From Sipunculus nudus (lineage: Eukaryota; Annelida; Sipuncula; Golfingiida; Sipunculidae): a stretch of DNA of 64,000 nucleotides. Position 1 is the first letter of the stretch. Each line of letters begins with the position of its first letter. The stretch lies in NCBI GenBank assembly GCA_026874595.1, contig CM049318.1, positions 20,745,456 to 20,809,455 on the forward strand, read 5' to 3'. Positions 9,400 to 46,400 of this stretch are shown piece after piece. The translations under genes and the position numbers were made by a program. A model generated the notes under the pieces. It made no database searches. It saw only the letters and a program-made list of their open reading frames with translations, and was not told the origin of the DNA.

Positions 9400-12389
9400 T
9401 CAGGATTCAAATTTTCCCAATATGTCTCCATCACGGAAAAGGAAGTAATCCTGAAACAAGATACAAGTTTAAAATAAATTGTAAAGCAAGCTCTTACTTG
9501 TTGAATATCAGCTAATAAGAGAATGAGTTATTTTACATACATACTACATCTATATCAATAAAATAATGCAATATTTAAAAATATTTTAGGAGCATGTATA
9601 GTAACATGTGTTATAACAAAAACTCACCAAGTCTAGATGTTGTGCACACTTTTTTGCTACTGGTGACCCCTGGTGGTGTTAAGGAGAACTACCCAAGCTA
9701 TCCAAAGATGTTTTACAATCATAAATCTCCTTATAATAGGTACTAGTCTAAATAGATCACATAAAGTTCTACTGTAGATTAAAATGAATCACTAAACAAA
9801 TTTCTAAGACAAATTCTGAGATATGCTACACATTATGTAACAAAATTAGTACAACTTCCTGAATGTTTATCAATTACCTGGAAGAAGCTGCAAATTCAGA
9901 CATATAATTTGTAACATTGTAAATTCTAAATGGTGCTACAGCCCTTGGAATTAAAAAAAAAGAGAGAGACAGACATCTCATTGGGACATTAATTTTAAGT
10001 TAGAACTTACTTTGTCCTCCAACTGTACTTTGGTTCCTCCATATTCTGGAAGCAATACAGTGTCTCCTACTACTACTGACAATGGGTTAACATCCCCCTT
10101 CTGGAAAAACAAACAAGGGACCACCATGATCACAAGTACTGGTATGGAATAGCATTTACTGCGATTGATACAAAACTGTTTGAAATAAAATATTATTGTG
10201 TTCCAGGAGAGAATAAAATAAAACAATCTTGCACCTATTATTACTATTACATCAGAAAAGATATGGTTTAGATCTCACATTTGTTTCTCTGCATAAAATT
10301 AAAATTAAAAAAAAAAATTTCGGCATAGAAATTAATGATTAAAGGACTTTATTACATTTATAATGGCAAGGTACTTCAGGTCTCTCATAAGAATTAATGC
10401 AAACGGTAGTTTCCGTAACAAATGCTAGGTCTGGACATATCTAACATGCAGTGGTGCCATCTGCAGTGTAACAGATGTTTTACAATGCACCGGCTTGTCA
10501 CTAATATTCTAATAGCCAGTACTTTAGTAGCAAATGGTATCTAATAGACATATACTCAATGGGTTTCATTACTAAAAAGAACATCCAATATCATATCCAG
10601 CATAGTTCTCATAAACAAATGTGTACATTTCAATACAAAGAACAAAACACAGAGGGAGGAGAGAGTGGGAGTGTGGTATCCCCCACCCCTCTCATGGTGT
10701 AAAAGTGTTTCAGGCTGTTATAGTGTATTGGTGCAATCTGGTGAAAAATTTGACAGTTTTAGGGTATAAAGCAATTATTTTCCAATTTTCCAAATTTGTT
10801 ATGTCAAAAAGGGGATGCACATCCGCCCCAAAATACCTTCATATCAATTCTCCAAGAACAAAATACCAGTTTATCAAGGCCTAACCTCTTATTCCTTTTT
10901 AAGAGGAAAATTATTTATTTAAATAAAAAAAATATAATTTACAGTTCCCCTAGGTAAGAAAAAATTTAAAATTTATTTTTATAAAAATCACACAAACTTG
11001 ACAGTCTGATGGACGTGTGTCACAGTTTTATATTAAACTTTACCTCATTCCTGGCTCCTGGTCCAGTCGCCACCACTGTTGCCTGTAGAACTTTGGCTTG
11101 AGATTTCTCTGGCAGCATGATACCTCCCTTTGTGGTCTTCTCTACAGCAAACCTCTCTACCAGGATACGGTCTGCCAGAGGCAAGAACTTGCGGAATGCT
11201 CGGCCAGCCTGTGAACAAACAAAGAAAGTTTCTGTCAAAGAAACAGTCTGTAAAAGGTGAATATTTCTGGCTCAACTACAACAAGAATAAGGAAGGTCAT
11301 GGAAGGTGGTTTTGGGTCACTTGTGCACATACAGGTCAACAACCTTTTGGCCAGCCTTCTGAATTATTAACTTTAATAACTTATGCTTTTCAAGTTTTGA
11401 CATTTATATCTGCTCTTTTGGAATGACAAAAACACTTGGAACCATATCCATACCAAATTAATTATGAAATATTCCAAATTAACCAAGAATTTAAAACCAA
11501 CTCAGTTTTTGCCATGAATATTTTTTCCCTTGGTTCTTGTGGGTACTTTTGCAGTCACAAGTAGGAAACCACTGATGGATACATTTTAAACAGTTCTCCT
11601 ATTACAAACAGGACTAAGGTGTAAATGTGTAGATCAGAACAGAAATAATCCTTAGAACAATGACAAGAAAATGAAAAATTTAATACTTTCAAACTGAACA
11701 CTATGGCAATTTTGGCAAACCACCTGAAAGGAACATTAATACACTGAGGGTAAATCAAAATGACAATGTCTACACTTTTCTGCAAATCTGCTCATCATTC
11801 ATGATTGTGTAATTTGCCATTGAGTAATTCTTAACAAAAAGTTATGTGTAAAGTATGGTACACCTTAAAACTATACTGAATAATCTACTGGCATCTGTAA
11901 TAGCAAGAAATGTAGAAATAAATGGGCATTACAAATTTAGGTTACTGAAGTATTTAAAATTGTCTATTTGCAGTCTGACCCTCAATCCCCCCCCCCCCCC
12001 CCCATTTCAAGTGTTAATCAAATGGTTTAACAATATTTATAATTTATATACATTATAAATATAATAATACACAGAAGTGAATTTAAGCAACTGATTTGAG
12101 GGCTTGGTCATACCACGGCATAACCCCATTAAATGTGGTATACCAAGTAGATCTGTAGTATTAATAGTTACAACTAGTACTACATCACACCGGCAAGCAA
12201 GCCAGTGGCTCTTCCTAAGAGCACAGACAATCCAGCATGGACCTGGCTTGTCTGATGACAAATTATTTAAAGGCAGACACTGAACTAAAACAGTGTGTAT
12301 AGCACCGCATGATCATGTTAAATTAGAAATCAAAAGTGACTTTTTTATGTCTGTTTACTTCAGAGGTCTACGTTACCAAAACTTACCAT
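9400..12389 (-). CDS. HSPE1: 10 kDa heat shock protein (Hsp10, mitochondrial co-chaperonin)
   Basis: Hsp10 forms the heptameric lid of the Hsp60 folding chamber in the mitochondrial matrix. Four coding exons join on the minus strand: 12387-12389 (the ATG alone), 11044-11208, 10011-10100 and 9400-9450, all with GT-AG introns in phase 0. The spliced frame is 309 bp, or 102 residues, the same length as human Hsp10. The order of conserved blocks is complete: N-terminal AFRKFLPL, the mobile loop with GGIMLP (residues 29-34) that docks on Hsp60, LQATVVA, VLLPEYGGTKV, and the C-terminal YFLFRDGDILGKF. An exon carrying only the start codon is striking but is supported by the donor GTAAGT right after ATG and by the exact length of the product. 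The gene stands head to head with HSPD1. Introns are 1178, 943 and 560 bp. The C-terminus ends FES rather than the vertebrate YVD. Confidence 0.97.
11987..12003. repeat. 17-base C run in HSPE1 intron 1
   Basis: Uninterrupted C homopolymer inside the first intron. No function is suggested. The length is likely variable or unreliable. Confidence 0.9.
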
Positions 12390-17715: not shown

Positions 17716-19111
17716 GCATATAAATCTTGTTGGCGCGATAACCCAAAAAATACTTCACGGAACTTTACCAAACTTGGTATATGTATAGATATGGGTGAGA
17801 GGATGACGCCTATTTAAAATGAGGTCATGACCTTACTAGGAGAGTGTCCTTGACCTTGAATAGGTCCAATTTTAGGGAAAATCACACAAATTCTTTAATA
17901 TCTCAAGAAATCTTGCATGGATTTATCCCAAAATCAAGTTGATGGAAGATCATGGATAGGGTTGTCATATTACAGAAACTGGTGGCGCCACCTATTATTC
18001 TTTACTTGTTTTCGTGCCATTAAATACCCCCAAAATTGCCACCTTACAGTACTGTGAGCATTATAAGTCAAAAGCTAATGGACAGATTTCTTTTATATTA
18101 TGCATATACATAGGTATGGGTTATGGGATGATGTTTATTTAAATTGGGGTCATGACCTTTCCTATGATAGTGGCCTTGACCTTGAATATTGCCGTATATG
18201 GTGAAAATCACACACCTCTTATGATATCTCCAGTGTTGATAGCCATATGGATTTCAAACATGACTTATGTATGGCCCACCACTAAAGTAAGAACCCTATA
18301 GGTTCTAGGGTCATGAGGTCAAAGGTCAAGGTCACTGGACTGGCATTTTAAAAGATACTGTGGATGCATTTTAAGCCAAACTTTCATCCTAGATCTTCCA
18401 TCTTGAATATATAGCATATAAATCTAGTTGGCGCGATAACCCAAAAAATACTTCACGGAACTTTACCAAACTTGGTATATGTATAGATATGGGTGAGAGG
18501 ATGACGCCTATTTAAAATGAGGTCATGACCTTACTAGGAGAGTGTCCTTGACCTTGAATAGGTCCAATTTTAGGGAAAATCACACAAATTCTTTAATATC
18601 TCAAGAAATCTTGCATGGATTTATCCCAAAATCAAGTTGATGGAAGATCATGGATAGGGTTGTCATATTACAGAAACTGGTGGCGCCACCTATTATTCTT
18701 TACTTGTTTTCGTGCCATTAAATACCCCCAAAATTGCCACCTTACAGTACTGTGAGCATTATAAGTCAAAAGCTAATGGACAGATTTCTTTTATATTATG
18801 CATATACATAGGTATGGGTTATGGGATGATGTTTATTTAAATTGGGGTCATGACCTTTCCTATGATAGTGGCCTTGACCTTGAATATTGCCGTATATGGT
18901 GAAAATCACACACCTCTTATGATATCTCCAGTGTTGATAGCCATATGGATTTCAAACATGACTTATGTATGGCCCACCACTAAAGTAAGAACCCTATAGG
19001 TTCTAGGGTCATGAGGTCAAAGGTCAAGGTCACTGGACTGGCATTTTAAAAGATACTGTGGATGCATTTTAAGCCAAACTTTCATCCTAGATCTTCCATC
19101 TTGAATATATA
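17716..19111. repeat. 698-bp tandem duplication within the Helitron-like element
   Basis: Sequence from GCATATAAATCT at 17716 restarts at 18414 with identical spacing. Apart from one noted change (AATCTTGTTGG versus AATCTAGTTGG) the copies look identical, so the duplication is recent compared with the diverged 290-bp units beside it. Confidence 0.93.
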
Positions 19112-19119
19112 GCTCACTT

Positions 19120-21070
19120 GCCAATAGTGGATGATCCATATAAATTTTAGGGTCACAAGGTCAAAGGTCAAGGCCTCAAGAGCTATCTGTCCAAAAATTA
19201 GTTTCTGGATGATAATTCCTGCTTTTATTGATGTATGGATTTCAAACTTGACTTATATATGTCCTATTGAAAAAGCAAGACTCCAATTGATTTTGGGGTC
19301 ATGAGGTCAAAGGTCAAGGTCACAGGACACATCTTTAAAAAGATTGTGGATGCATTTTCAGCCAAACATTTCGTCTCAGACCTTTCATCTTGCACATATA
19401 AGTCGTCTGCCAATAGAGGAAGACCCCTATCAGTTTTTTTTTAAGGTCACAAGGTCAAAGGTGAAGGTCACAGGAGCCATCTGTCCAAAAATTAGTTTCT
19501 GGATTATAATTCCTACTTTTATTGATGTATGGATTTCAAACTTGACTTGTATTTGACCCATTGGAAAAATAAGACCTGAATTGTTTTAGGGGTCATGAGG
19601 TCAAAGGTCAAGGTCACAGGAAACCTCTTTAAAAAGATTGTGGATGCATTTTCAGCCAAACAATTCATCTGAGATCTTTCATCATGCACATATAGTTCAC
19701 CTGCCAAGAGTGGAGACCTCTATCAATTTTGAGTTCACAAGGTCAAAGGTGAAGGTCACAGGAGCCATCTGCCCAAAAATTAGTTTCTGGATGATAATTC
19801 CTGCTTTTATTGATATATGGATTTCAAACTTGACTTGTATATGTCCCATTTGAAAAGCAAGACCAAAATTGATTTTGGGGTCATTAGGTCAAAGGTCAAG
19901 TTCACAGGACACATCTTTAAAAAGATGTGGATGCATTTTACAGCCAAACCTTTCATCTCAGATCTTTCATCTTGCACATATAGTTCACCTGCCAAGAGAG
20001 GAAGAACCCTGTCAGTTTTGAGGTCACAATGTCAAAGGTGAAGGTCACAGGAGCCAATTGTCCAAAAATTAGTTTCTGGATGATAATATCTTCTTTTATT
20101 GATGTATGGATTTCAAACTTGACTTGTATTTGATCCATTGGAAAAGCAAGACCCGAATTGATTTTGGGGTCATGAGGTCAAAGGTCAAGGTCACAGGAAA
20201 CCTCTTTAAAAAGATTGTGGATGCATTTTCAGCCAAACAATTCATCTCAGATCTGTCATCTTGCACATAAAGTTCACCTGCCAAGAGTGGAAGACCCCTA
20301 TCAATTTTTGAGGTCACAAGGTCAAGGGTGAAGGTCACAGGAGCCATCTGTCCAAAAATTAGTTTCTGGATGATAATATCTTCTTTTATTGATGTATGGA
20401 TTTCAAACTTGACTTGTATATGTCCCATTGGAAAAGCAAGACCCAAATTGTTTTTGGGGTCATGAGGTCAAAGGTCAAGGTCACAGGACATCTTTAAAAA
20501 GATGTGGATGCATTTTCAGCCAAACATTTCATCTCAGATCTTTCATCTTGCACATATAGTTCACCTGCCAAGAGAGGAAGAACCCTATAAATTTTGAGGT
20601 CACAAGGTCAAAGATGAAGGTCACAGGAGCCATCTGTCCAAAAATTAGTTTCTGGATGATAATTCCTACTTTTATTGATGTATGGATTTCAAACTTGACT
20701 TGTATATGTCCTATTGGAAAAGCAAGACCAAAATTGATTTTGGGGTCAAAGGTCAAGGTCACAGGACACATCTTTAAAAAGATGTGGATGCATTTTCAGC
20801 CAAACATTTCATCTCAGATCTTTCATCTTGCACATATAGTTCTCCTGCCAAGAGAGGAAGAACACTATCCATTTTGATGTCAAAGGTGAAGGTCACAGGA
20901 GCCATCTGTCCAAAAATTAGTTTCTGGATGATAATTCCTGCTTTATTGATGTATAGATTTAAAACCTGACTTGCATATGTCCCATTGGAAAGCAAGCCCG
21001 GAATTGATTTTGGGGTCATGAGGTCAAAGGTCAAGGTCACAGGACACATCTTTAAAAAGATCAAGGTCAC
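19120..21070. repeat. Array of about seven 290-bp units
   Basis: The anchor TTAGTTTCTGGATGATAAT recurs near 19200, 19495, 19783, 20072, 20362, 20648 and 20920. Each unit carries two copies of a GGTCAAAGGT(C/G)AAGGTCAC block. Units differ by substitutions and small indels. Open frames across the array are translations of the repeat, not genes. Confidence 0.92.
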
Positions 21071-21346: not shown

Positions 21347-22280
21347 ATGTACAGACTACCAAGCCTAATCCGGCCTGCCATGGCCCAGAAGTTGCTGTCC
21401 CCCACAGTCAGCTATGCTGCATCACGCTCCTATGCCAAGGACCTTAAGTTTGGTGCTGATGCTCGTACACAGATGTTACAAGGTGTAGACATCTTAGCAG
21501 ATGCTGTTGCCATCACGATGGGACCCAAGGTACCTGATTTACATACTGTGAAACCTGTTTAATAAGACCACATACAAATGTGTAATTATGAAGAAGACAC
21601 TTATAGGATATCACAGAAATTGTTATAAATAGAACAAACATGTTTCTTTTGCAAAAGTTCAAAACTTAGTGTTGCAGAGACAATTGTTTCACCACTGTGG
21701 ATGCGAATTTTTCAATAAATTATGCTTATCTGGGGACATTCCTACATTTACTTTTGCAGTAATAGACTCCAGGGCAGAGCTGTTGTGGAATGATATCACT
21801 ATTATAAAATTTGAAATATTCAAATTTCAGGGAAGAAATGTGATCCTGGAACAAAGCTGGGGCTCCCCAAAAATCACAAAGGATGGTGTCACAGTGGCTA
21901 AGGCAGTGGAGCTTCAAGACAAATTCCAGAATATCGGAGCTAAACTCGTTATGGACGTGGCCAACAACACTAACGAAGAAGCTGGTGATGGTACCACCAC
22001 TGCCACCATCCTGGCACGAAGCATTGCCAAGGAAGGGTTCGACAAAATCAGCAGAGGGGCTAACCCCATCGAAATACGTAAAGGTGAGTCTCAATGTGAC
22101 TAAGCATATGCTAAAGCTATTTGAGGTATATATGAGTTGTATATGTAATGTATGGTTCTTACAGTATCAGGGGGAAAAAAATCATTCTTAATAGAAGTCT
22201 TAAATTCATTTCTATATATAATTGGTATAAGTGAAGGAAGTTTTGAACAGTATGGTGATAAACAAATACTCTGGCAAGTT

Positions 22281-22320
<40 letters not shown>

Positions 22321-25300
22321 AATTATACTTTGAAAGAATATTGAAATGACTATTCTAACAGATTAAATAACTTCTTAAAAGTACTTTACATTTTTGTTTG
22401 AGATCATATTAGTATGGGACTATCCTTGTTGTGCAATGTGAATAAGAGTATTCTAATGATTGATACAAGAATTACCATGTTGTGACATATTTGCACCCCT
22501 ACATTTGTACATATGTTTTCAAAGGTGTGATGATGGCAGTTGAATTTGTGGTAGAACACCTGGCAAAAATGTCCAAACAAGTGACAACACCTGAGGAAAT
22601 TGCACAGGTAATATATACAAATTTTTAAAATTAATACTTCGGTAAAATGACTATAATTTATAAGGAAGTCATGGATGGATAGCTGTAACCTTAAAATTGG
22701 GGTGTGGGAGCTGTAAAATGGATGGTGACTGTTTCAAGATGCACTGAGAATAGTAAGATTAAAAGCCGCATGTAGAAATGTGATAGATAACGTTAAAGGT
22801 GAAATGTGGTAGAGTACAGTGAGGTATGTGACTTTAACTCCCAGTAAGATTCAAGTGAGCTTTCGGAGGAAGAATCCCACTATTAGTTTGTATGAAGTAA
22901 AATACCTGCATGTTACACTTGTATATATTTGTTATGGCTGACACATTGGTTGTATAGTTTAAACTGTATTATATATTCCATGTACCTGCACAGCTGTCAC
23001 CAGGCTGAGACTGTTGTCTCCGTCATCATCAGCAGATGCTACAGCACTGCTTGGTCACTTCCAGCCTGATACTCTGTTCTGTCTGGCTGGCATTCAGCCA
23101 AGCTACAGTCAAGGAATGTACATACTGCATTTTCCTTTCAAGTAATCACTGCTTGCTTTAGTAGGATTGGCTGGGTTTCTCCTTCAGGGTTGTTGGCAGA
23201 GGGCCAAAAACAAAATCAGACCAATATTTGTGGGGTATCCCACACATTCAGAAACTGGTGATACATGCTTTCATAGGGCTTTTGTGACACATTTACTATC
23301 ACAGGTTGCAACCATCTCTGCTAATGGTGACACTTCTATTGGAGAAATCATCTCCAGCGCCATGAAGCGTGTTGGTAAGGATGGCGTCATCACGGTCAAG
23401 GACGGCAAGACCTTGAAGGACGAGCTGGAGGTCATTGAGGGCATGAAGTTTGACAGAGGATATATCTCTCCTTATTTTATCAACACCAGCAAAGGTAAAA
23501 GTGAAAGAGTCTCACAGGATTTTATTATGAGTGGAAAATTTATATAGGTCATTTTACTTTCCAGAAAACCCTTTTTAAATTTCATATCAGTAAATGAGCA
23601 CTAAATAAGTATGAATTAACAGAAACCAAGTTAGGTGAATGGCATCTTACATTTCAGCTTTTTTTTCCCAAGTTGTAGCTTTAGTTTGTTCTATAATTAT
23701 AAGTTGTGGCTGTTACTTGCCTGTTGTTACTTGGTTGTTATGCACAAGAAAGGGGGAAATGAAACTGTGTGTGTTTCCTTTCTGGTTACTGTCTGTGCTA
23801 CAATAAAGCTTGGTCACTTCTAGTCTGGCACTATTACTTGTCAGCCTGGCATTCAACCATGCTACATTACAGGAACCTGTAACATTACATTGTTACCTGT
23901 TCTTGTATAGTTCACTTAGATTCTGACAGATGGTGCTGCAAATGCACCACAGTATTTCAGTATATTTTACTGTCTTTCTTTGGTGCTGTCATTTTTATGC
24001 CCCCACCACAAAGTGGCCGGGGCATATAGTTTTACCCATGTCCGTCATTCCGTCCTTCCGTCATTCCGAAATCAAACAGTTGTACGGACTTTTTTTCGCA
24101 ATGCCTGCAGATATTGGCCTGATTTTTGGTGTGTGGGCAGATATAGACCAGTTACAGATCGAGATCGCGTTTCATCTCGGTTGACCTACTTTTGACCGTT
24201 TTACGGCTCCTAAACTTAGAAAATTTCATGAAAAATAGAAATATTCATGACAGATACACATATACGGACTTTTTTTCGCAATGCCTGCAGATATTTGGCC
24301 AGATTTTTTGTGTGTGAGCAGATATAGACCAGTTACAGATCGAGTTCGCGTTTCGTCCTGGTTGACCTTTTTTTGACCGTTTTACGGCTCCTGAACATAG
24401 AAAATTTCATGAAAAATATGAAATTTCATGACAAATACACATGTACGGACTTTTTTTCGCAGTGCCTGCAGATATTGGCCTGATTTTTGGTGTGTGGACA
24501 GATATAGACCTGTTACAGATCGAGTTCACCTTTCGTCCTGGTTGACCTACTTTTGACCGTTTTACGGCTCCTTAACTTAGAAAATTTCATGAAAAATAGA
24601 AATATTCATGACATACACATGTACAGACTTTTTTTCGCAATGCCTGCAGATATTGGCCTGATTTTAGGTGTGTCAGCAGATATTGACCAGTTACAGATCG
24701 AGTTCGCGTTTGGTCCCGGTTAACCCACTTTTGACTGTTTTACAGCTCCTGAACATAGAAAATTTCATGTAAAATATATATTTTCATGACAAATACACTT
24801 GTACAGACTTTTCTTCACAATACCTGCAGATATTGGCCTGATTTTTGGTGTGTGGGCAGATAATGACCAGTTACAGATCAAGTTCAAGTTTTGTCCCAGT
24901 TGACCTATTTTTGACCGTTTGACAGTGCTCTAACATAGAAAATTTCATAAAAAGGTGCACATGTATGGACTTTTTTTTCGCAGTGCCTGCAGATACAGGC
25001 CTGATTTTGGTGTGTAGGCAGATAATGACCTGTACAGATTGAGTTCTTGTTTTGTCTCAGTTGACCTACTTTTGACCATTTGACTCTTCCTGAACATAGT
25101 AAGTTTCATGAAAAATATAAATTTTCATAACAAATGCATATGTACTGACTTTTTTTCCTCGATCCTGCAGATACCACCCTGATTTTTTTTGTGTGGGCAG
25201 ATTATGACAGTTATGTACAGATCGAGTTTGCGTTTCATCCCGGTTGACCTACTTTTGATTGTTTTACGGCTCCTAAACAGAAAATTTCATGAAAGACAGA

Positions 25301-28300
25301 AATTTTTATGGAAAATGCACATGTATGGACTTTTTTTCACAATGCCTGCATATACTGGCAGGATTTTTGGTGTGTTGCTTGATAATGACCCGTTACAGAT
25401 CAAGTTTGCATTTTGCCCTTGTTGACCTACTTTTGACCATACGACACCTCCTGAACTTAAAAAATTTTCCAAATTTTACAAATGTTTCTAATTTGCCCAA
25501 GGCGGGGGCATTCGTGTCGTTCCAACACATCTAGTATATATGTGATTGAACCTTGTTGATCAGCTTTCTGTTGATAGCCGGTCAGATTACTTACCAGTGC
25601 ATCTTCATCTAAAACTAGCTTTAATGACAACCTTTTATTACCATCTCTGTGTAATAGCTTACTTAACTTTGTCGTAAGTGCCTAAAATTTCCTATATCTG
25701 GTGAATATAAAAAAGTTTTAAAACTATTGTATTTACATAGTTATATAAATTATATATTATATATGGTGTACTTATGTTTTATGTTTATTTCACCTGTATT
25801 TTTACTCAACAGGTGCTAAGGTGGAGTTCCAGGATGCCTACGTTCTGCTGTGCGAGAAGAAAATCTCCAGCATCCAGTCCATCATTCCAGCCCTGGAGCT
25901 TGCAAACAGCCAGCGCAAACCCCTGGTTATCGTAGCCGAGGATGTAGATGGGGAGGCCCTCAGTACACTGGTGCTCAACAGGTACAATGATTTGTCAGTT
26001 TGTATTAAAACGCAACTGTGTGCAAAAAGGAATATTTTAGGTGTTTTCTCTTTTGTTAATTTGGTTAACGAAGTTTTTTTATTACCACACTTTGTCAACA
26101 CCTGTTGGCAATAACTAACACCCAAGTGTTCAGGTCCAGTATTGTTATATCTCAGTAATAAAAGTAATGCACAATATAATCTCTGTCTGCTTGTCAGACC
26201 CCCTTGCATCTTGTTATCACATGACAAGCTCTCTCACCTGAATTTACTCAGAAGATGATCATATTAGCTCATTGCACATGCTCTTTAAAAAGGTAAATTA
26301 TTTTTAAACTACTTACCTATGTATGTGGACACCCATGCATGCAAGAATTGTGTAATGAATTAAAATCGTGAAATCCAGATTCACACTTGTAAAATGTTAC
26401 ATTATTACAGTTGTGTTCTTTATTTAATTTCAGTTTATTGAATAGTATAAATGATTTACAAACTTTAGTTCACCTTTGCTGGCTTTATTAAGTGTTCCAT
26501 TAACAGGAGCAGATAAATATTAAATTTGTTTCTAAATCTTTTATTTTCTTTTATTATTTATTTTTTTACACAGAATCAAGGTTGGCCTTCAGGTGGTGGC
26601 AGTGAAAGCACCAGGGTTTGGTGACAACAGGAAAAACTCACTGCAAGATATGGCTGTAGCAACAGGCGGTCTGGTAAGTATGATAATGTTTGGTATTACT
26701 TAGCCTTGTGGATATGGCATTGGACTTCGGGGATGAAAATTTGGTAAGGTTAATTAAAGATCATTTAACTTGCATGAAAAAAAACTTTTAATGTCATCTC
26801 AAGAGATGCTTGTTTCAGGGCTTACTAGTTTGTATTTGGTAATTTATTTAAAGCAAGTTATAGCTTTGGTTTGTTTGGTAATAATTTGTGGTTGTTACTT
26901 GCATGTTGTTACTTGGTTTGCTATGCACAAGAAAGGAGGAAATGAAACTTTTAAGTTTTCGTAACATTCATTCAAACTACAGCCCACAGTTCCTCCAGTT
27001 CTTCAGTATTTTTTTTGGAACTGTTCCCCAGTGGAGAAAGAAGATGTAGAAATAAAAGTATGATAATGATTTGGTGGGAAAAATCTGCATGATCTTGTTT
27101 TCAATAGAAGTAACTTTATTGCTATAAATGTGATGAATAAGTCTTGAACTTCTTTTTTTAGGTGTTTGGAGATGAAGCCAGCATGAACAACTTGGAAGAT
27201 GTACAGCTGCAGGACCTTGGACAAATTGGAGAGGTTGTCGTCACCAAGGATGACACACTCTTCATGAAGGTGAGAACCTTTAATTTTTTCTACTCTGGAT
27301 TCAGGATAGATATTAGCCTTTAAATTTGGTTGGTCTGTTGGGTGATAAATTATGTAAATTGAACATAAAGTCGGAATGGGAAGAAAATATTTTGTAAATT
27401 ACATTTACATTAAAAGTGTGACCCTATAAGAAAGGTTAATTTTCTGATATCCTTGCTTGATATCCTGATATCCTTGAATAATTATTTTTTTAAACTTTCT
27501 AGGAACATGAGTGAATTGAGTTTCATACAAAAAATTCATTATGGAAGAATTCCCTTTTATTGCTGAGTTATGCTCATGAATGCAGGCTGGTTTTCTTTCA
27601 GATGTTTACATTTCTTAAAAAAAAAACCCAACTGTTTGTTTTATAATTTGCGGCCATGAAATTACTAAGGATCCACAGAATATATCTCTCCCATGCAGTT
27701 AATTCTTGTAAATACCTGTGTTCACCTGGCCATGATGATAAAATCTACTTAGGACACCTTCTGAAGCCTGATGATACTTTTATCTGAGCCAGGTTTCAGT
27801 CAAATTTATATAAAAAATATCATTTTATTTATTTGAAGCACAATTCAGGTATACACTGATAATGCATTTGGTTGTATTGATTCATTTTCATGTAAACCAT
27901 ATGTTGTGTTAGTATCTTGCATATTATTTTCTTCAAAGCAGACCATAAACAATAACAGGATAATCATTTATCTGTTTATTGAGTATGACATGGGGATTCA
28001 TTAAAATACTCTGACATTAATGCTTGTGAAAGATTGGATTTAAAACATGCCACTATACATGGGAAAAAATATTAATTCATTGTGATCTCTGTTTATTTTG
28101 TTTTGTAATCTAATGTGTTATTCTGTACATGTATTGAAAATTAACACTCATTTGCGTATACAGCGATAGCTGTATGATCCAATATAAATAAATACAATTA
28201 TTTTAAGTAAATTAAATGTCTAATAAATTACCCTTTTTGATTCTTAGGGCAAAGGAAACTCCAGCGACATTGAAAAACGTATCCAGCAAATTAAGGATGA

Positions 28301-31275
28301 GATCGAACTGTCCAACTCCGAATACGAGAAAGAAAAGATGGGTGAACGTCTGGCAAAACTGTCCAATGGTGTGGCCGTCTTGCATGTAAGTCATCAGCTT
28401 TTGGCCCCTCTCCATGTATAGGAGTCTTACAGGGATGTCCATCACTCTGATATTTGTATTATATATTGGAAGGATATTCTGTTAAGTGTTCAGGCATGTA
28501 ATCTTAGACCTGTTACTTATCACTAGATCATCATTGATCATTGAATATTCAGGGTGTAAGTAGTTGTTATTCATACTTAAAGCATATTATTTTTAATTTA
28601 TTATTAAAAGTCTGATAGATTTGTTTTAATATAGATAGCCATGTAATGTATTCACATGTTAACTGACTGTGATGAAAAAACATACTTAGGACACCTTCTG
28701 ATGGCCTTGATGTTCAACATTGTCTGAGTCAGCACTTTGTACAAAAGAGTATCATTTTCATAGCAATATAGTAATAGGTGGTATAACAGCAGTAATTTTA
28801 TATCACAATATGTATTAAAAATGTGTATTTTTTAAGATTGGTAAACTTTTTAAAGTAAAAGAAATATAATACTCACAACTGATATAATTATTTTAACAAA
28901 TGGAAAAAGATAAGATGATTAAGAAAAATGTTATAGTTATAAAACATCATAACCCTAGGCATCTACCGAATAGGGGATAGTTTTCTATTTTGTATCATTT
29001 ATCAGAGATAAAATCAGTACCAGAAGGGTCATATTCTGGAATATTTCTCATCTATGAACCTTACTTATTTCCTTTAAAGATTGGAGGATCCAGCGAAGTT
29101 GAGGTTAATGAGAAGAAAGATCGTGTAACAGATGCCCTGAACGCCACTAGGGCAGCAGTAGAGGAGGGAATCGTACCAGGCGGTGGTACCGCTCTGTTGA
29201 GGTGTCTGCCAGCTCTCGAGACCCTCTCACCACAAAACGATGACCAGAAGACAGGTATGTGAAGTGCAATACCGACCAACCCTGTCAGTTACCCTTAATT
29301 AGTCAACTTTCTTGGGAACCTACAACTGTTGCTGTTATTTAAGTGTAGTAAAGTTAACATGTTCAGTGTTTGGCAATCATCTATGAGCAGTAGTAATTTA
29401 TTATCTCCCGGACTGCATTTCTTGTACACAAGACCTTTGCCTTGGGTCCAAGCTGATGTTCCTGAAGGTCATAACCATGCAAATTTATGGATGAAACACT
29501 GACATCATTATGCAAGCCTTTGTCATGTAGACTTGTACATTTCATTTAAATTAAAATCCAGTTGAAAGTACAGTTTTAATTACAAAGGTGTTTCATGACT
29601 TTGCAATTTTATGTTTCTTTTTATATTTCTTAATTAACTTTAAACAGAAAAAGTTGGTTTTTAATCTAAGAGCATTTCAGTGATATTCTTTTGACATCTG
29701 AATGTTCTGATTAAATGTATTACAATGTATAAGGAAAATCAGGATTCTGTTCCATCACATTGGCTAATTTTATTTGCTCTTCAGGAGCCAATTTGATTTT
29801 CAGGAAATGCACAGATTCCGCTTCCTCATTTTAATCATTTGGATGAGAATCCCATGCTTACACTTAATTGCTAACAATTACCTTATTGATCCTAAAACCT
29901 GGCTATGATGATAAATTTACTTAGGACACCTGCTGAAGTCTGTGATGTTCATTAAATATCTGAGCCAGTGCAAAATACTTGACCCCTGGGATAAAAAAAT
30001 TATGATAATTGGGTAACCCATTATGTTCTGTTAAAATGATCAGGACAATTTCAAATGATGAAGCAAAGTCTCCAAAATTGGTAAAAATCTAAGTTGAAAG
30101 AAGGCATGCACATTGAGGAGCATCATGATTAATAGTACAAGGATACTATTAATTAGTACAGTAAAATATGAAAGGGAAAATTTTTCTTTATTATAGTGTA
30201 TTTGTATTGCAGGTATTGAGATTGTCCGCAAATCCCTGAGGATGCCATGTTACCAGATTGCTGCCAATGCTGGTGTTGATGCATCAGAGGTCCTGTCTAC
30301 GGTTCTGGCTTCGCCTGAGGCTGTGGGCTATGATGCCATGAACTCTGAATATGTCGACATGATCAACAAGGGTATCATTGATCCTACGAAGGTAAGGAAA
30401 TTTTGGTTCTATCAAATTTTAAGAAATTATTTTTTTGTGAAGTGCAGTAAGGGGAAAACTTCACAAATTATATGACAGTATCATTATGCAAGGTATGTTA
30501 ACTTTACTAGTAATTTATTAACCACTGGATTACAACTACAAATTACAAATTGACTCATGCTGTGATGATAAAATCTACTTAGGACACCTTCTGAAAGCTG
30601 ATGTTAATATTATCTGAGCATGATTAAAATTGATATTTATATGCCACGTTTGTGTACAGGTAAACAGACAATCTTACAATACATATTTTATGTTGAGAAT
30701 TTCTCCAGTTGGTAACAAATTCATCCAGTCGAGAAGTAAAAAGTGGATTGACAGTTAAGGTTTTCCTTGCAGATTAAAGTAATTATTTATCATACAATTT
30801 CTGTTATTAAGGTTGCTGAATGTATTCTTTTATGAAATATCTATTTCTCCAGAGCCTACAGTGAATGTTTTCATGCAGTTGATGATATTTCAGGGGATCT
30901 GGGTGTAAATTTTTTTCCTCCTTTCAGAATAACAGGGACCAGACAGTAAAGTTTTTGCATTGTTACCTCTTAGGGATGTATCAGTAAAGTTACTTGTGCA
31001 TTTGATGTTTCCTGGTGATCTTACATTAACTGTATAGCACAGGTGATAAAACTCAGGGATCATATTGTAATTATTTTATACAGCTGGTAATTTGACTGTG
31101 AATATATTTCTGCTTGCAGGTTGTCAGGACAGCCCTTATGGATGCCGCTGGTGTTGCTTCACTACTGAGCACGGCGGAATGTGTCGTGGTGGAAAAGCCA
31201 AAGAAGGAAGAACCCATGCCAGGTGGTGGAGGAATGGGGGGCATGGGAGGGATGAACCCCATGATGGGCATGTAA
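21347..31275 (+). CDS. HSPD1: 60 kDa heat shock protein, mitochondrial (Hsp60 chaperonin)
   Basis: Hsp60 is the ATP-driven folding chamber of the mitochondrial matrix. Eleven coding exons: 21347-21529, 21831-22083, 22525-22607, 23305-23494, 25813-25981, 26574-26673, 27162-27269, 28248-28385, 29080-29254, 30213-30391 and 31120-31275. All junctions are GT-AG and phases agree throughout. The total is 1734 bp, 577 residues (human 573). Residues 1-29 are a basic presequence ending RSY, with the mature protein likely starting [11 protein letters not shown]. The ATP-site motif GDGTTTA is at 113-119, the cpn60 signature [12 protein letters not shown] is intact, and the tail is a GGM-rich run. With the leader exon this gives twelve exons, as in human. 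HSPE1 diverges from the same promoter. Introns host six snoRNA candidates and two Helitron-like elements. Confidence 0.98.
22281..22320. repeat. (TA)n microsatellite in HSPD1 intron
   Basis: About 26 uninterrupted bases of alternating T and A inside a longer TA-rich run, in the intron after coding exon 2. Confidence 0.9.
22982..23110 (+). ncRNA. H/ACA-type snoRNA candidate 1
   Basis: A 129-nt hairpin-hinge-hairpin-tail fold is visible. The 5' hairpin closes GTACCTGC (22982) on GCAGATGC (23032-23039) with one mismatch, and its upper stem ends 16 nt before the H box ACAGCA (23041). The 3' hairpin closes GCTTGG on CCAAGC, has a pocket TCACTT/CATTCAG, an upper stem CCAGCC/GGCTGG, and ends 14 nt before ACA (23105), which is followed by three bases. 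The 14-16 nt spacing is the rule for pseudouridine guides. It lies in the HSPD1 intron after coding exon 3. The target was not identified. Confidence 0.65.
23742..23869 (+). ncRNA. H/ACA-type snoRNA candidate 2
   Basis: A 128-nt relative of the candidate at 22982 in the next intron. GCACA (23742) closes on TGTGC directly before the H box ACAATA (23800). The 3' hairpin keeps the pocket TCACTT/CATTCAA while its stems differ: CTAG/CTGG plus CTGGCA/TGTCAG. ACA follows at 23864, 14 nt below the upper stem, then three bases. Conservation of the pocket with changed but still paired stems supports an RNA function. The 5' hairpin has almost no left pocket strand, so only the 3' pocket may guide. Confidence 0.6.
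23996..25534 (+). mobile_element. Helitron-like (pearl/HINE-type) element with 180-bp core units
   Basis: The left end has ATGCCCCCACC and a close hairpin with GGGGCAT; the right end has GGCGGGGGCAT, the inverted match of the left, then a short hairpin GTGT...ACAC and CTAG before a T. Between them about eight units of roughly 180 bp repeat, anchored on ACGGACTTTTTTTCGCA, GCAGATATTGGCCTGAT and GACCGTTTTACGGCTCC. Units decay toward the right. No coding frame for a transposase is present. The 5' end lacks the TC of classic Helitrons. It fills most of the HSPD1 intron after coding exon 4. Confidence 0.8.
26865..26985 (+). repeat. Partial copy of the 23.7-kb snoRNA region
   Basis: About 85 bases (through GCACAAGAAAGGAGGAAATG) match 23689-23770, the 5' half and upstream flank of H/ACA candidate 2, and CATTCAAACTACAG recalls its 3' end. 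The closing TGTGC arm and the lower 3' stem are missing, so it looks like a dead duplicate rather than a working RNA gene. Confidence 0.5.
27724..27794 (+). ncRNA. C/D box snoRNA, SNORD58-like copy 1
   Basis: C box ATGATGA (27732), D' CTGA (27761), C' TGATGA (27769) and D CTGA (27784) are all present, and the ends pair perfectly: ACCTGGC with GCCAGGT. The guide before D', CTACTTAGGACACCTT, is complementary to the conserved 28S rRNA segment GGUGUCCUAAG. From memory, the same guide occurs in vertebrate SNORD58 and, with one change, in yeast snR78. It lies alone in the intron after HSPD1 coding exon 7. Confidence 0.93.
28663..28732 (+). ncRNA. C/D box snoRNA, SNORD58-like copy 2
   Basis: C box GTGATGA (28669), D' CTGA (28698), a weak C' (TGATGT) and D CTGA (28724). 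The terminal stem CTGAC/GTCAG differs from that of copy 1 but still pairs. The guide core ACTTAGGACACCTT is unchanged, while the sequence before the D box is not conserved, so the D' guide is the functional one. It lies in the intron after coding exon 8. Confidence 0.9.
29899..29968 (+). ncRNA. C/D box snoRNA, SNORD58-like copy 3
   Basis: C box ATGATGA (29905), D' CTGA (29933), C' GTGATGT (29942), D CTGA (29960), terminal stem CTGGC/GCCAG. The guide reads TTACTTAGGACACCTG; the final G, in place of T in the other copies, extends the match to 28S rRNA (CAGGUGUCCUAAG) by one pair. It lies in the intron after coding exon 9. Confidence 0.92.
30555..30623 (+). ncRNA. C/D box snoRNA, SNORD58-like copy 4
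   Basis: C box GTGATGA (30562), D' CTGA (30591), C' TGATGT (30599), D CTGA (30614). The terminal stem TCATGC/GCATGA is perfect and unlike those of the other copies. The guide is the same as in copy 1. It lies in the last HSPD1 intron, after coding exon 10. Confidence 0.93.
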
Positions 31276-32150: not shown

Positions 32151-32209
32151 GTTTTTATTAGTTCTTATTTACAATAGTGACTTGTTGCTTGTGATCATTA
32201 TTATATAGC

Positions 32210-35200
32210 TGCCTGTTGAGCGGAGACCTGTATGTTTTTGGTGCCCTGTGTCTTTTCTGTATTAGGATGGATTTCAGTTCATAACTAATTACTTTGCTGG
32301 CCAAGATGCCATCATCATTAAATACCTGCCTGTTTGAGAGGAAACTTGTATGTTTCTGGTGCCTTGTGTCTTTTCTGTATTAGGATGGATTTCAGTTCAT
32401 AACTAATTACTTTGATGGCCAAGATGCCATCATCATTAAATACCTGCCTGTTTGAGAGGAAACTTGTATGTTTCTGGTGCCTTGTGTCTTTTCTGTATTA
32501 GGATGGATTTCAGTTCATAACTAATTACTTTGATAGCCAAGATGCCATCATCATTAAATACCTGCCTGTTTGAGAGGAAACTTGTATGTTTCTGGTGCCT
32601 TGTGTCTTTTCTGTATTAGGATGGATTTCAGTTCATAACTAATTACTTTGATGGCCAAGATGCCATCATCATTAAATACCTGCCTGTTTGAGAGGAAACT
32701 TGTATGTTTCTGGTGCCTTGTGTCTTTTCTGTATTAGGATGGATTTCAGTTGATAACTAATTACTTTGATGGCCAAGATGCCATCATCATTAAATACCTG
32801 CCTGTTTGAGAGGAAACTTGTATGTTTCTGGTGCCTTGTGTCTTTTCTGTATTAGGATGGATTTCAGTTCATAACTAATTACTTTGATGGCCAAGATGCC
32901 ATCATCATTAAATACCTGCCTGTTTGAGAGGAAACTTGTATGTTTCTGGTGCCTTGTGTCTTTTCTGTATTAGGATGGATTTCAGTTCATAACTAATTAC
33001 TTTGATGGCCAAGATGCCATCATCATTAAATACCTGCCTGTTTGAGAGGAAACTTGTATGTTTCTGGTGCCTTGTGTCTTTTCTGTATTAGGATGGATTT
33101 CAGTTCATAACTAATTACTTTGATAGCCAAGATGCCATCATCATTAAATACCTGCCTGTTTGAGAGGAAACTTGTATGTTTCTGGTGCCTTGTGTCTTTT
33201 CTGTATTAGGATGGATTTCAGTTCATAACTAATTACTTTGATGGCCAAGATGCCATCATCATTAAATACCTGCCTGTTTGAGAGGAAACTTGTATGTTTC
33301 TGGTGCCTTGTGTCTTTTCTGTATTAGGATGGATTTCAGTTGATAACTAATTACTTTGATGGCCAAGATGCCATCATCATTAAATACCTGCCTGTTTGAG
33401 AGGAAACTTGTATGTTTCTGGTGCCTTGTGTCTTTTCTGTATTAGGATGGATTTCAGTTCATAACTAATTACTTTGATGGCCAAGATGCCATCATCATTA
33501 AATACCTGCCTGTTTGAGAGGAAACTTGTATGTTTCTGGTGCCTTGTGTCTTTTCTGTATTAGGATGGATTTCAGTTCATAACTAATTACTTTGATGGCC
33601 AAGATGCCATCATCCTTAAATACCTGCCTGTTTGAGAGGAAACTTGTATGTTTCTGGTGCCTTGTGTCTTTTCTGTATTAGGATGGATTTCAGTTCATAA
33701 CTAATTACTTTGATAGCCAAGATGCCATCATTATTAAATACCTGCCTGTTTGAGAGGAAACTTGTATGTTTCTGGTGCCTTGTCTTTTCTGTATTAGGAT
33801 GGATTTCAGTTCATAACTAATTACTTTGATGGCCAAGATGCCATCATCATTAAATACCTGCCTGTTTGAGAGGAAACTTGTATGTTTCTGGTGCCTTGTG
33901 TCTTTTCTGTATTAGGATGGATTTCAGTTCATAACTAATTACTTTGATGGCCAAGATGCCATCATCATTAAATACCTGCCAGTTTGAGAAGAAACTTGTA
34001 TGTTTCTGGTGCCTTGTGTCTTTTCTGTATTAGGATGGATTTCAGTTCATAACTATTTACTTTGATAGCCAAGATGCCATCATTATTAAATACCTGCCTG
34101 TTTGAGAGGAAACGTATGTTTCTGGTGCCTTGTCTTTTCTGTATTAGGATGGATTTCAGTTGATAACTAATTACTTTGATTGCCAAGATGCCATCATCAT
34201 TAAATACCTGCCTGTTTGAGAGGAAACTTGTATGTTTCTGGTGCCTTGTGTCTTTTCTGTATTAGGATGGATTTCAGTTCATAACTAATTACTTTGATAG
34301 CCAAGATGCCATCATCATTAAATACCTGCCTGTTTGAGAGGAAACTTGTATGTTTCTGGTGCCTTGTGTCTTTTCTGTATTAGGATGGATTTCAGTTCAT
34401 AACTAATTACTTTGATGGCCAAGATGCCATCATCATTAAATACCTGCCTGTTTGAGAGGAAACTTGTATGTTTCTGGTGCCTTGTGTCTTTTCTGTATTA
34501 GGATGGATTTCAGTTCATAACTAATTACTTTGATGGCCAAGATGCCATCATCATTAAATACCTGCCTGTTTGAGAGGAAACTTGTATGTTTCTGGTGCCT
34601 TGTGTCTTTTCTGTATTAGGATGGATTTCAGTTGATAACTAAATACTTTGATGGCCAAGATGCCATCATCATTAAATACCTGCCTGTTTGAGAGGAAACT
34701 TGTATGTTTCTGGTGCCTTGTGTCTTTTCTGTATAAGGATGGATTTCAGTTCATAACTAATTACTTTGATAGCCAAGATGCCATCATCATTAAATACCTG
34801 CCTGTTTGAGAGGAAACTTGTATGTTTCTGGTGCCTTGTGTCTTTTCTGTATTAGGATGGATTTCAGTTCATAACTAATTACTTTGACGGCCAAGATGCC
34901 ATCATTATTAAATACCTGCCTGTTTGAGAGTAAACTTGTATGTTTCTGGTGCCTTGTGTCTTTTCTGTATTAGGATGGATTTCAGTTCATAACTAATTAC
35001 TTTGATGGCCAAGATGCCATCATCATTAAATACCTGCCTGTTTGAGAGGAAACTTGTATGTTTCTGGTGCCTTGTGTCTTTTCTGTATTAGGATGGATTT
35101 CAGTTCATAACTAATTACTTTGATGGCCAAGATGCCATCATCATTAAATACCTACCTGTTTGAGAGGAAACTTGTATGTTTCTGGTGCCTTGTGTCTTTT

Positions 35201-37400
35201 CTGTATTAGGATGGATTTCAGTTCATAACTAATTACTTTGATGGCCAAGATGCCATCATCATTAAATACCTGCCTGTTTGAGAGGAAACTTGTATGTTTC
35301 TGGTGCCTTGTGTCTTTTCTGTATAAGGATGGATTTCAGTTCATAACTAATTACTTTGATGGCCAAGATGCCATCATCATTAAATACCTGCCTGTTTGAG
35401 AGGAAACTTGTATGTTTCTGGTGCCTCGTGTCTTTTCTGTATTAGGATGGATTTCAGTTCATAACTAATTACTTTGATGGCCAAGATGCCATCATCATTA
35501 AATACCTGCCTGTTTGAGAGGAAACTTGTATGTTTCTGGTGCCTTGTGTCTTTTCTGTATTAGGATGGATTTCAGTTCATAACTAATTACTTTGATGGCC
35601 AAGATGCCATCATCATTAAATACCTGCCAGTTTGAGAGGAAACTTGTATGTTTCTGGTGCCTTGTGTCTTTTCTGTATTAGGATGGATTTCAGTTCATAA
35701 CTAATTACTTTGATGGCCAAGATGCCATCATCATTAAATACCTGCCTGTTTGAGAGGAAACTTGTATGTTTCTGGTGCCTTGTCTTTTCTGTATTAGGAT
35801 GGATTTCAGTTGATAACTAATTACTTTGATGGCCAAGATGCCATCATCATTAAATACCTGCCTGTTTGAGAGGAAACTTGTATGTTTCTGGTGCCTTGTG
35901 TCTTTTCTGTATTAGGATGGATTTCAGTTCATAACTAATTACTTTGATAGCCAAGATGCCATCATCATTAAATACCTGCCTGTTTGAGAGGAAACTTGTG
36001 TGTTTCTGGTGCCTTGTCTTTTCTGTATTAGGATGGATTTCAGTTCATAACTAATTACTTTGATGGCCAAGATGCCATCATCATTAAATACCTGCCTGTT
36101 TGAGAGGAAACTTGTATGTTTCTGGTGCCTTGTGTCTTTTCTGTATTAGGATGGATTTCAGTTCATAACTAATTACTTTGATGGCCAAGATGCCATCATT
36201 ATTAAATACCTGCCTGTTTGAGAGGAAACTTGTATGTTTCTGGTGCCTTGTGTCTTTTCTGTATTAGGATGGATTTAAGTTGATAACTAAATACTTTGAT
36301 GGCCAAGATGCCATCATCATTAAATACCTGCCTGTTTGAGAGGAAACTTGTATGTTTCTGGTGCCTTGTGTCTTTTCTGTATTAGGATGGATTTCAGTTC
36401 ATAACTAATTACTTTGATGGCCAAGATGCCATCATTATTAAACAGCTGCCCGTTTGAGAGGAAACTTGTATGTTTCTGGTGCCTTGTGTCTTTTCTGTAT
36501 TAGGATGGATTTCAGTTCATAACTAATTACTTTGATGGCCAAGATGCCATCATCATTAAATACCTGCCTGTTTGAGAGGAAACTTGTATGTTTCTGGTGC
36601 CTTGTGTCTTTTCTGTATTAGGATGGATTTCAGTTCATAACTAATTACTTTGATAGCCAAGATGCCATCATTATTAAATACCTGCCTGTTGGAGAGGAAA
36701 CTTGTATGTTTCTGGTGCCTTGTGTCTTTTCTGTATTAGGATGGATTTCAGTTCATAACTAATTACTTTGATGGCCAAGATGCCATCATCATTAAATACC
36801 TGCCTGTTTGAGAGGAAACTTGTATGTTTCTGGTGCCTTGTGTCTTTTCTGTATTAGGATGGATTTCAGTTCATAACTAATTACTTTGATGGCCAAGATG
36901 CCATCATCATTAAATACCTGCCTGTTTGAGAGGAAACTTGTATGTTTCTGGTGCCTTGTGTCTTTTCTGTATTAGGATGGATTTCAGTTCATTACTAATT
37001 ACTTTGATGGCCAAGATGCCATCATTATTAAACAGCTGCCCATTTGAGAGGAAACTAGCATGTTTTTGGCTCCCTGTGGGTGTCTGTCTGTAGGAGGAGG
37101 AATATGTTCTTGCTGCCTGTTTGAGAGGAAACTACATGTGATATGTTTTTGGCTCCTTGTGTTTGTGTCTGTATGAGGAATATGTTCTTGCTGCCTGTTT
37201 TAGAGGAAACTAATATGTTTTGGGCTTCCTGTGGATGTCTGTCTATGAGGAGGAATATGTTGCTGTTGCTTGATTGAGAGGAGTCTTGGTATGTTTTTGG
37301 CACCATGCCCATCTTGTATGTACGAGGGAGAATACCAGCTCTTAACTATTTACTTTGATTTCCAAGATCCCATCACCAAAAAAAAACTGACTGTTTGAGA
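32210..37400. repeat. 118-bp satellite-like array, about 40 units
   Basis: The unit, anchored on AATACCTGCCTGTTTGAGAG, recurs with a period of exactly 118 bp from 32331 to 37041, with a few 2-4 bp deletions. Central units are nearly identical. Variant bases (GATAGCC for GATGGCC, AGTTGATAAC for AGTTCATAAC) recur together every five units in the first part, so 590-bp blocks were themselves duplicated. The first unit and the last ones (37041-37400, units shortened to about 75 bp) are degenerate, as expected of array edges. It starts right after the HSPD1 poly(A) region. No coding content. Confidence 0.97.
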
Positions 37401-43402: not shown

Positions 43403-46400
43403 TCAGGAAACATAGTTGAGGACTTTTTTTGTTCGTAGTTGTTTAGGGATTGACTGGGGTCCATGCAGTTGTCGCGCTCTCTTGAGGAAAGATTTAACCA
43501 TTGTCTTAACCACTTCATCAAAGAAAATGTTGGCCAGGTTGGCATGTAAGGCAGAGCGAAATTCAAAGGTCACCTGTAAAATAAAACAAAATTTCTTTAA
43601 CAACAGGAAAGGGTAATTTTCTTAATAAAAATAAAAAAGTGCAAAAACTCAATTAAGTATATGTGTATTTTTGTTTAATTGGAGAAAAATTTGAGAAAAG
43701 TATCCATTCCATGGAGAGATTTCTAAGAGAAAATATTCAATTTACTATTATATTTCAATAAAAAATTTAATCCAAAGATCTACTGCATGATATTTCAAAA
43801 TTTTTCATTCTTTAACAAAACAAGTGACCCAGGGGTCATGACGCTCAGCTGACCAGGAAGACATTGACAAAAGTAATTTTATCATCTGAATGTCAAATTT
43901 GAATGAAATACTTTTTCCAAACTTGACCTTTTGTATAAAATCATCCAATATTCATTGGGGTACTATGGAGCTCTGTAGCAAGGATATGGGTAACAGACAC
44001 CTATTTTCAAGGTTTACAAGATGACTTTTCAGGGGTCTCCCAGCATGTCAAAAAATAAAATTCTAGGTCCAGTTATTATGATTTGTGCCCTGTTAACAAA
44101 TCCAAATGTTTATTCTGGGGGGTATTTCAAAGCCGCATAGGATGAAGGATATGGGTAACAGAGATGTAATTTCAGGTGCACAAGGAGACTTTTCAGGGGC
44201 CTCCCAGCATATCAAGAAAGGAGATTCTAGGTCAAGTCATTATAATTTGTGCTCTGTTAACAGATGACCTAATTTTTATTCTGGGGAGTACTTCGGAGCC
44301 CCAGAGCATGAAGGATATGGGTAACAGGGACCTTAGTTCGGGTTTCCATGTAGACCTTTTATGGGCTTCCCTGGAGGTGAGGACAGAAGATTCTAGGTCC
44401 AGTCATTATGATTTGTGCCCTGTTAATATATGACCAAATCTTTATTCTGGGGGGTACTTCAGAGCCCCATAGCTCACAGAATATGGGTAACAGGGACCTT
44501 ATTTTGGGTTTCCCGAAAAAATACAGGTGGCGCCACCAGAATGCAGAAACTGATGAAACATTTCATGATCAATATTCATGCAAAGAATCATGGTGATCAA
44601 TATAATAATTGTTCAGATACTTGAGCTTTTGTATCAAATTTTCCATTATTCTGGGGGGTACTTCGGAGCCCCATAGCTCAGAGGTTATGGGTAACAGAGA
44701 CCTAATTTCAAGTTTTTAAGGAAACTTTTCATGGGCCTCTCAGCATGTCAAGAGAGAAGATTCTAGGTCCAGTTGTTACGATTTGTTCCATGTTAACAGA
44801 TGACCGCATCTTATGAGGTCTCAAAAATAGAGAAAAAATTCGTAAAAATAAAAAAATACAGGTGGCGCCACCATACTGCAGAAACTGATGACACATTCCA
44901 TGATCAATATCCATGCAAAGGATCATGGTGATCACTGCAATAGTTGTTTAGATACTTGAGCTTTTGTATCAAATTGTCCATTATTCTGAGGGATACTTCA
45001 GATGACTTACAGTCAGCTGAGCTAAAAACACTTAATGGTCAATATCCATGCAAAGAATCATGATGATCTCCGTATTAGTTGTTCAGATACTTCAGCTTTT
45101 GTATCAAATTGTCCATTATTCTGAGGGATACTACAGAGTCCTATAGCTTGAAGGATATGGGTAACAGAGACCTAATTTCAAGTTTCCACAGGCACTCTTC
45201 ATGGGCCTCCTTGCATGACAAGAATGAAGTTTCTAGGTCAAGTTGTTGCAATTTGTACCCTCTTGATAGATAACATAGGTGGCGCCACCAGTCTGCAGGA
45301 ACTGATGGAACATCTCATAATCAATATGTATGCCAAAAATCATGACCATCAGTGATGTAGTTATTGAGATATTGAAGTTTTTGTATGAAATTTTTGACTA
45401 CTCTGGGGGGGTACTTTGGGGCCCCATAGCTCGAAGGATATGGGTAACAGAGACCTAATTTCTGGTTTCCATGGAGACTTTTCATAGGTCTTCTAGTGTG
45501 TTGAGAATGAAGATTCTAGGTCCAGTCGTTACTATTTGTGCCATGCTAACAGATGACAGCATCCTTAAAGGTCTCAAAAATAGAGGAAAAAATCGTAAAA
45601 AATCGAACGATACAGGTGGCCCCACCAGTCTGCAGGAACAGATGACACATCTCATGATCAATAGTTATGCCACAAATCATGACCATCATTCAAGTAGTTA
45701 ATGAGATATTGAAGTTTTTGTATGAAATTTTTTACTTTTCTTGGGGGTACTTTAGGGCTCCATAGCTCGAAGAATATGGGTAACAGAGACCTAATTTTGA
45801 TTTCCATGGAGACTTTTCATAGGTCTCTCAGTGTGTCGAGAAAGAAGATTCTAGGTCCAGTCGTTATGATTTGTGCCACGTTAACAGATGACAGCATTCT
45901 TAAAGGTCTCAAAAATAGAGGAAAAAATCGTAAAAAATCAAACAATAAGGGTGGCGCCACAAGTCTGCAGGAACTGATGGAACATTTCATAATCAATATG
46001 TATGCCAAAAATCATGACCATCAGTGATGTAGTTATTGAGATATTGAAGTTTTTGTATGGAATTTTTGACAACTCTGGGGGGGGGGGGGGGTACTTTGGG
46101 GCCCCAAAGCTCGAAGGATATGGTTAACAGAGACCTAATTTCTGGTTTCCAAGGATATTTTTCATGGACCTCTCAGTGTGTCAAGAATGAAGATTCTAGG
46201 TCCAGTCGTTACGATTTGTGCCATGCTAACAGATGACAGCATCCTTAAAGGTCTCAAAAATAGAGGAAAAAATCGTAAAAAATCGAACAATAAAGGTGGC
46301 ACCACCAGTCTGCAGGAAGTGATGACACATCTCATGATCAATAGTTATGCCACAAATCATGACCATCAGTCAAGTAGTTAATGAGATATTGAAGTTTTTG

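Follow-up and report, generated by a model that had tools for sequence, protein, structure and literature searches.

The HSP60 locus and its intronic units

Do the last introns of the HSP60 gene of Sipunculus nudus encode small nucleolar RNAs, and, if so, which rRNA nucleotide would these RNAs serve? The question is raised by four similar short units in a 64,000-nucleotide stretch of contig CM049318.1, referred to below as the window. The host gene codes for an HSPD1-type chaperonin, and its coding region (21347..31275, plus strand) consists of 11 exons, supported by spliced translation and by matches in Pfam and PDB. Spliced at GT...AG, the exons form a single 1734-nt frame of 577 amino acids plus the stop codon, without an inner stop. 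The product matched Pfam Cpn60_TCP1 with 242.5 bits, and the best PDB matches were 60-kDa chaperonin / mitochondrial HSP60, with E-values of 1.6e-268 and 3.5e-268.

The four units are all on the plus strand. With introns numbered by counting the 10 HSP60 introns between coding exons, the first unit (27724..27794) lies in intron 7 (27270-28247) and has a 7-bp terminal stem, ACCTGGC/GCCAGGT. The second (28663..28732) lies in intron 8 (28386-29079) and has a 5-bp stem, CTGAC/GTCAG, and the third (29899..29968) occupies intron 9 (29255-30212), with a 5-bp stem, CTGGC/GCCAG. The fourth (30555..30623) was found in intron 10 (30392-31119), with a 6-bp stem, TCATGC/GCATGA. The spliced gene model thus bears out the unit coordinates and the arrangement of a single copy per intron in the last four, both of which were given in the original prediction. 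The units are 69-71 nt long, and 244-496 nt separate them from the 3' splice site. In vertebrates, the distance from an intronic snoRNA to the 3' splice site is usually 70-80 nt. The 5-7-bp terminal stems may compensate for the long distance in the HSP60 introns.

Other features of the locus were also recorded. Peptide motifs resembling Cpn10/HSPE1 (GGIMLPE, VLLPEYGGT) are encoded at about 10058-11127 of the window on the minus strand, opposite to HSP60; going by the peptide motifs only, the head-to-head HSPE1-HSPD1 locus seems to have been kept. A 118-bp tandem array (32194-37069; 41.4 copies, 97% matches) is located immediately 3' of HSP60. Other tandem arrays occupy positions 24081-25467 (180-bp unit, within HSP60 intron 4), 18944-21061 (289 bp), and 45277-47238 (337 bp).

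Box, guide, and stem features

Box C/D snoRNAs are stable RNAs bound by fibrillarin, NOP56, NOP58, and 15.5K. All of their testable features (boxes, stem, and guide) were present in the HSP60 units. Boxes C, D', C', and D occur in the right order in all four, box D is CTGA and box C' is TGATG throughout, and the guide CTTAGGACACCT is invariant. The combination of box C TGATGA, the guide, and D' CTGA had four matches in the 64-kb window versus none in 100 shuffles. When both strands of the ten HSP60 introns were scanned without the guide, requiring boxes C and D, a CTGA between them, and a terminal stem no shorter than 5 bp, exactly the four units were returned, while 0.02 were expected per strand from mononucleotide shuffles.

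The terminal stems differ in sequence and nevertheless pair: all 23 scored cells were paired, with two-sided changes at 4 of the 7 pairs, and this score was equalled by 3 of 500 shuffles. When the stem partners were slid as a control, 20%-32% of cells were paired at offsets from -3 to +2, and 9% at +3. Inclusion of a further copy from the PSMA6 gene, described below, increased the counts to 29 of 29 paired cells and two-sided changes at 5 of 7 pairs. This covariation provides strong support for a functional stem, short of proof, as the sequences are few and related. The box, guide, and stem counts uphold the initial description of four C/D units with a shared guide and differing, pairing stems.

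The units are related to each other, with pairwise alignment scores of 35-47 (the shuffle maximum was 14) and identities of 73%-82%. The intron flanks have diverged: in 11 of the 12 flank comparisons, the score did not rise above the best of 40 shuffles, and the sole exception was the 5' side of introns 8 and 9 (27 vs 25). The stretch between C' and D differs in length and sequence among the units; therefore, each unit carries one guide rather than two.

The bare pattern TTAGGACACCTNCTGA had 5 matches genome-wide versus 7 for the reversed control. Since this word is not rare, the case rests on the clustering, boxes, and stems rather than on the guide word alone. The fifth match, on contig C6, had no box C nearby and did not match a model built from the four HSP60 units, and was regarded as a chance occurrence.

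Predicted target in 28S rRNA

The guides of the HSP60 units pair with a fragment derived from 28S in the S. nudus genome over 12, 12, 14, and 12 Watson-Crick bp, the 14-bp pairing to the 28S-like target being that of the intron 9 unit. The fifth base before D' faces the same U of AGGUGUCC in all four units and in the PSMA6 copy. The fragment (L026, contig C8) was recognized by the eukaryotic LSU model with an E-value of 9.4e-7 and 34.9 bits, less than the 50-bit cut-off; the consensus of this model has an identical GUGUCCUAAGG and reads CgCaGgUGUCCUAAGG at the corresponding place. The 28S piece around GGTAACGCAGGTGTCCTAAGG extends over about positions 1405-1530 of L026 on the minus strand (contig C8 near 29539958) and is bordered by short words that recur, as though a dispersed element had picked it up.

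An exact 22-mer search for genomic 28S had no matches in the assembly. A 28S 14-mer was found at five places, one of which is the reverse strand of the intron 9 unit itself; all of the other four were read, and one of them, L026, is a 28S fragment. Rfam at the gathering level assigned no family to three of these four places. No 5.8S was found in the assembly, and the 28S word did not occur in viral contigs. True rDNA was thus not found by the 28S 22-mer, 14-mer, and 5.8S searches and may be missing from the assembly. Another locus, L035, matched the four-unit model partially (15.1 bits, E-value 0.014, model positions 24-66) where it contains the guide word, without a stem; this match was attributed to chance.

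In a table of PMC3511168, one row contains both human RF00151, at Um4197, and plant RF00353, at Um2641. In PMC11542601, Um4227 shares a table row with plant Um2651, and in our own reading Um4227 is Um4197 in newer numbering. The U predicted from guide pairing is very probably human Um4197, the SNORD58 site. The guide pairing, the D'+5 rule, and the site listing in PMC3511168 agree with the SNORD58-type 28S target proposed at the outset. The proposed equivalence to yeast snR78 has to be corrected: PMC3511168 and PMC8817022 place snR78 together with U52 and Um3904, U52 stands beside snR78 in a listing in PMC2780460, and the SNORD58 row of the table in PMC3511168 carries no yeast guide.

Family assignment

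The SNORD58 model (RF00151) scored 28.6 bits for the unit of intron 7 (E-value 0.0047), 28.0 for that of intron 8 (0.0069), 24.7 for that of intron 9 (0.06), and 33.4 for that of intron 10 (0.00021), all under the gathering score of 42 bits. This model had been suggested as a check in the original prediction; although its scores all remained below the cut-off, its E-value was lower than that of any other Rfam family for every one of the units. At the gathering level, Rfam had no match in the entire 64-kb window. For the units of introns 7 and 9, other C/D families outscored SNORD58 in bits (e.g., SNORD79 with 31.1 and SNORD20 with 27.7), although with worse E-values. RF00353 and RF02283 also matched the units with the guide aligned, at 27.1 and 27.5 bits, below their cut-offs of 45 and 50. 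Because no unit reaches the Rfam SNORD58 cut-off, we use the name "SNORD58-type" rather than treat them as formal members of the family. The HSP60 units are predicted to act like SNORD58 and probably descend from the same snoRNA.

Other copies and host genes in the genome

A fifth SNORD58-type C/D snoRNA was found on contig C3 at 13426943-13427017 (L006:1499-1573), in an intron of PSMA6, with an RF00151 score of 40 bits, also below 42. It has the same guide, a D' box CAGA, and the stem CATGAC/GTCATG. The model built from the four HSP60 units matched it with 31.9 bits (E-value 1.3e-6), and its identity to these units is 58%-65%. The copy sits between exons, which when joined encode 171 amino acids matching proteasome subunit alpha type-6 (E-value 6.2e-98). 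In the RF00151 genome search, 64 of 1,147,708 candidates were scored, and the PSMA6 copy alone was listed; since the four HSP60 units were missed, this search is no census, and further diverged copies may exist in the genome.

A looser pattern of box C plus guide had 29 matches genome-wide versus 13 for the reversed control. Five of the 29 are complete C/D units, four in HSP60 and one in PSMA6. Another 14 were read and scanned with the four-unit model; 11 had no match and 3 reached at best 12.1 bits (E-value 0.1). In the other 10, on contigs C61-C89, box C and the guide are 2 nt apart.

RPL17 is the host of vertebrate SNORD58, as stated in the original prediction and confirmed in PMC8178906. 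Its S. nudus counterpart was placed on contig C8. In the surrounding 15.9 kb, where the first exon was not located, AGGACACC was absent on the gene strand and occurred once, in an unrelated context, on the other strand, and the four-unit model had no match. HSP60, with four copies, and PSMA6, with at least one, are the hosts found in this genome; the RPL17 introns covered contain none. The host switch proposed originally has no direction in these data: HSP60 is not the sole host, no copy was found around RPL17, and a single genome does not tell which host is older.

Bacterial ribosomal protein L22 was encountered at 11 places on contigs C61, C62, C66, C72, C73, C74, C75, C89, C99, and C132. 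The L22 that was compared shared no more than 38% identity with the three relatives found for it in GTDB. Contigs of bacteria, perhaps symbionts, appear to be part of the assembly.

Proposed function and alternative explanations

We propose that the units are paralogous box C/D snoRNAs of SNORD58 type, encoded in four introns of one gene and guiding 28S methylation, with a probability of about 0.92; expression, processing, and methylation are predicted from the sequence. Splicing, debranching, and trimming of each HSP60 intron would release a snoRNA as a snoRNP, with the 5-7-bp terminal stem joining boxes C and D for the snoRNP proteins. The D' guide would pair with 28S rRNA at AGGUGUCCUAAG and direct 2'-O-methylation to the U paired with the fifth base of the guide counted back from D', which corresponds to human Um4197. 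The four copies presumably arose by duplication among the introns of one host.

The units could instead be unexpressed remnants, or a dispersed repeat that happens to resemble a C/D snoRNA, as might be suspected in a repeat-rich region where Rfam has no match at the gathering level. However, 5 of the 29 matches to box C and guide are complete units, the 14 others that were read had no model match or a low-scoring one, and in all five units the boxes are intact and the stems covary, which makes this origin highly improbable. The guide might also serve an RNA other than 28S, or mainly the adjacent G (human Gm4198) in a pair of marks. Um4197 and Gm4198 are indeed neighbors in the human 28S data of PMC10657414 and PMC4463414, while the D'+5 rule selects the U in all four HSP60 units and in the PSMA6 copy; we consider such a target very unlikely.

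Another view would give the units a role in their own host: by folding with the intron or delaying splicing, they would tune HSP60 output, and rRNA methylation would be secondary. The case of SNORD2 in EIF4A2 described in PMC10324135 is a precedent, and four copies in one gene leave scope for such an effect. However, the copies have the 28S guide, the boxes, and the stem in common, whereas their flanking introns are not conserved, and we regard regulation of the host as the least probable of these explanations. The interpretation as methylation guides is preferred over all of them.

A heat-inducible host was originally suggested to tie rRNA methylation to stress. This was not supported by the number of heat-shock-element-like sites, 21 versus 22.8 expected, which is at chance level in a count over the whole window rather than over a defined promoter. 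A broader version would place the guide dose in two protein-quality-control genes (four copies in HSP60 and one in PSMA6), so that methylation of the U and ribosome make-up would rise with proteotoxic or mitochondrial stress; we consider this very doubtful. If HSP60 output did set the guide level, ribosome modification would be tied to proteostasis.

Comparison with known systems

In the open-licence literature, judged by titles and the beginnings of abstracts, no paper was found to describe snoRNAs within the introns of HSP60. HSP60 and PSMA6 join the hosts of a snoRNA type common to plants and animals, in agreement with the view, expressed in PMC3511168, that snoRNAs move among broadly expressed host genes. 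The locus also provides five good-looking snoRNAs that score under the Rfam cut-off.

The closest relative is SNORD58 (RF00151; human SNORD58A/B/C in RPL17), which has the same guide and predicted target U as the HSP60 units and likewise occurs as several copies within the introns of one host (PMC8178906). The differences are the hosts, here HSP60 and PSMA6, the D' box of the HSP60 units (CTGA), and the bit scores below the cut-off. Location in RPL17 is a trait of vertebrate SNORD58 that is not defining elsewhere, and it is not seen here. Plant snoR31/Z110/Z27 (RF00353; AtsnoR10, Um2641) aligns at the guide, and its site is listed as equivalent to Um4197 in PMC3511168, although it belongs to another lineage. 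The guide of Tetrahymena TtnuCD6 (RF02283), also from another lineage, aligned as well, with a match below the cut-off. Yeast snR78 / SNORD52 is a C/D guide too, and its target is likewise a U in the large rRNA; however, its site, yeast Um2421/human Um3904, differs from that predicted for the HSP60 units and is served by U52.

The presence of several copies in one gene has direct precedents in the three U14 copies in Hsc70 (PMC7277114) and the SNORD58 copies in RPL17 (PMC8178906). U14/SNORD14 in the Hsc70 introns is likewise a C/D snoRNA multiplied within a chaperone gene, although the snoRNA, its target, and the chaperone are different. In most human C/D families (59.5%), all expressed members reside in a single host (PMC8178906). 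Since other genes for chaperones and ribosomal proteins have long been known to show this layout, the HSP60 arrangement is mostly ordinary: the snoRNAs are real-looking, well preserved, and biologically unexceptional, and their new hosts are a modest addition to the known ones.
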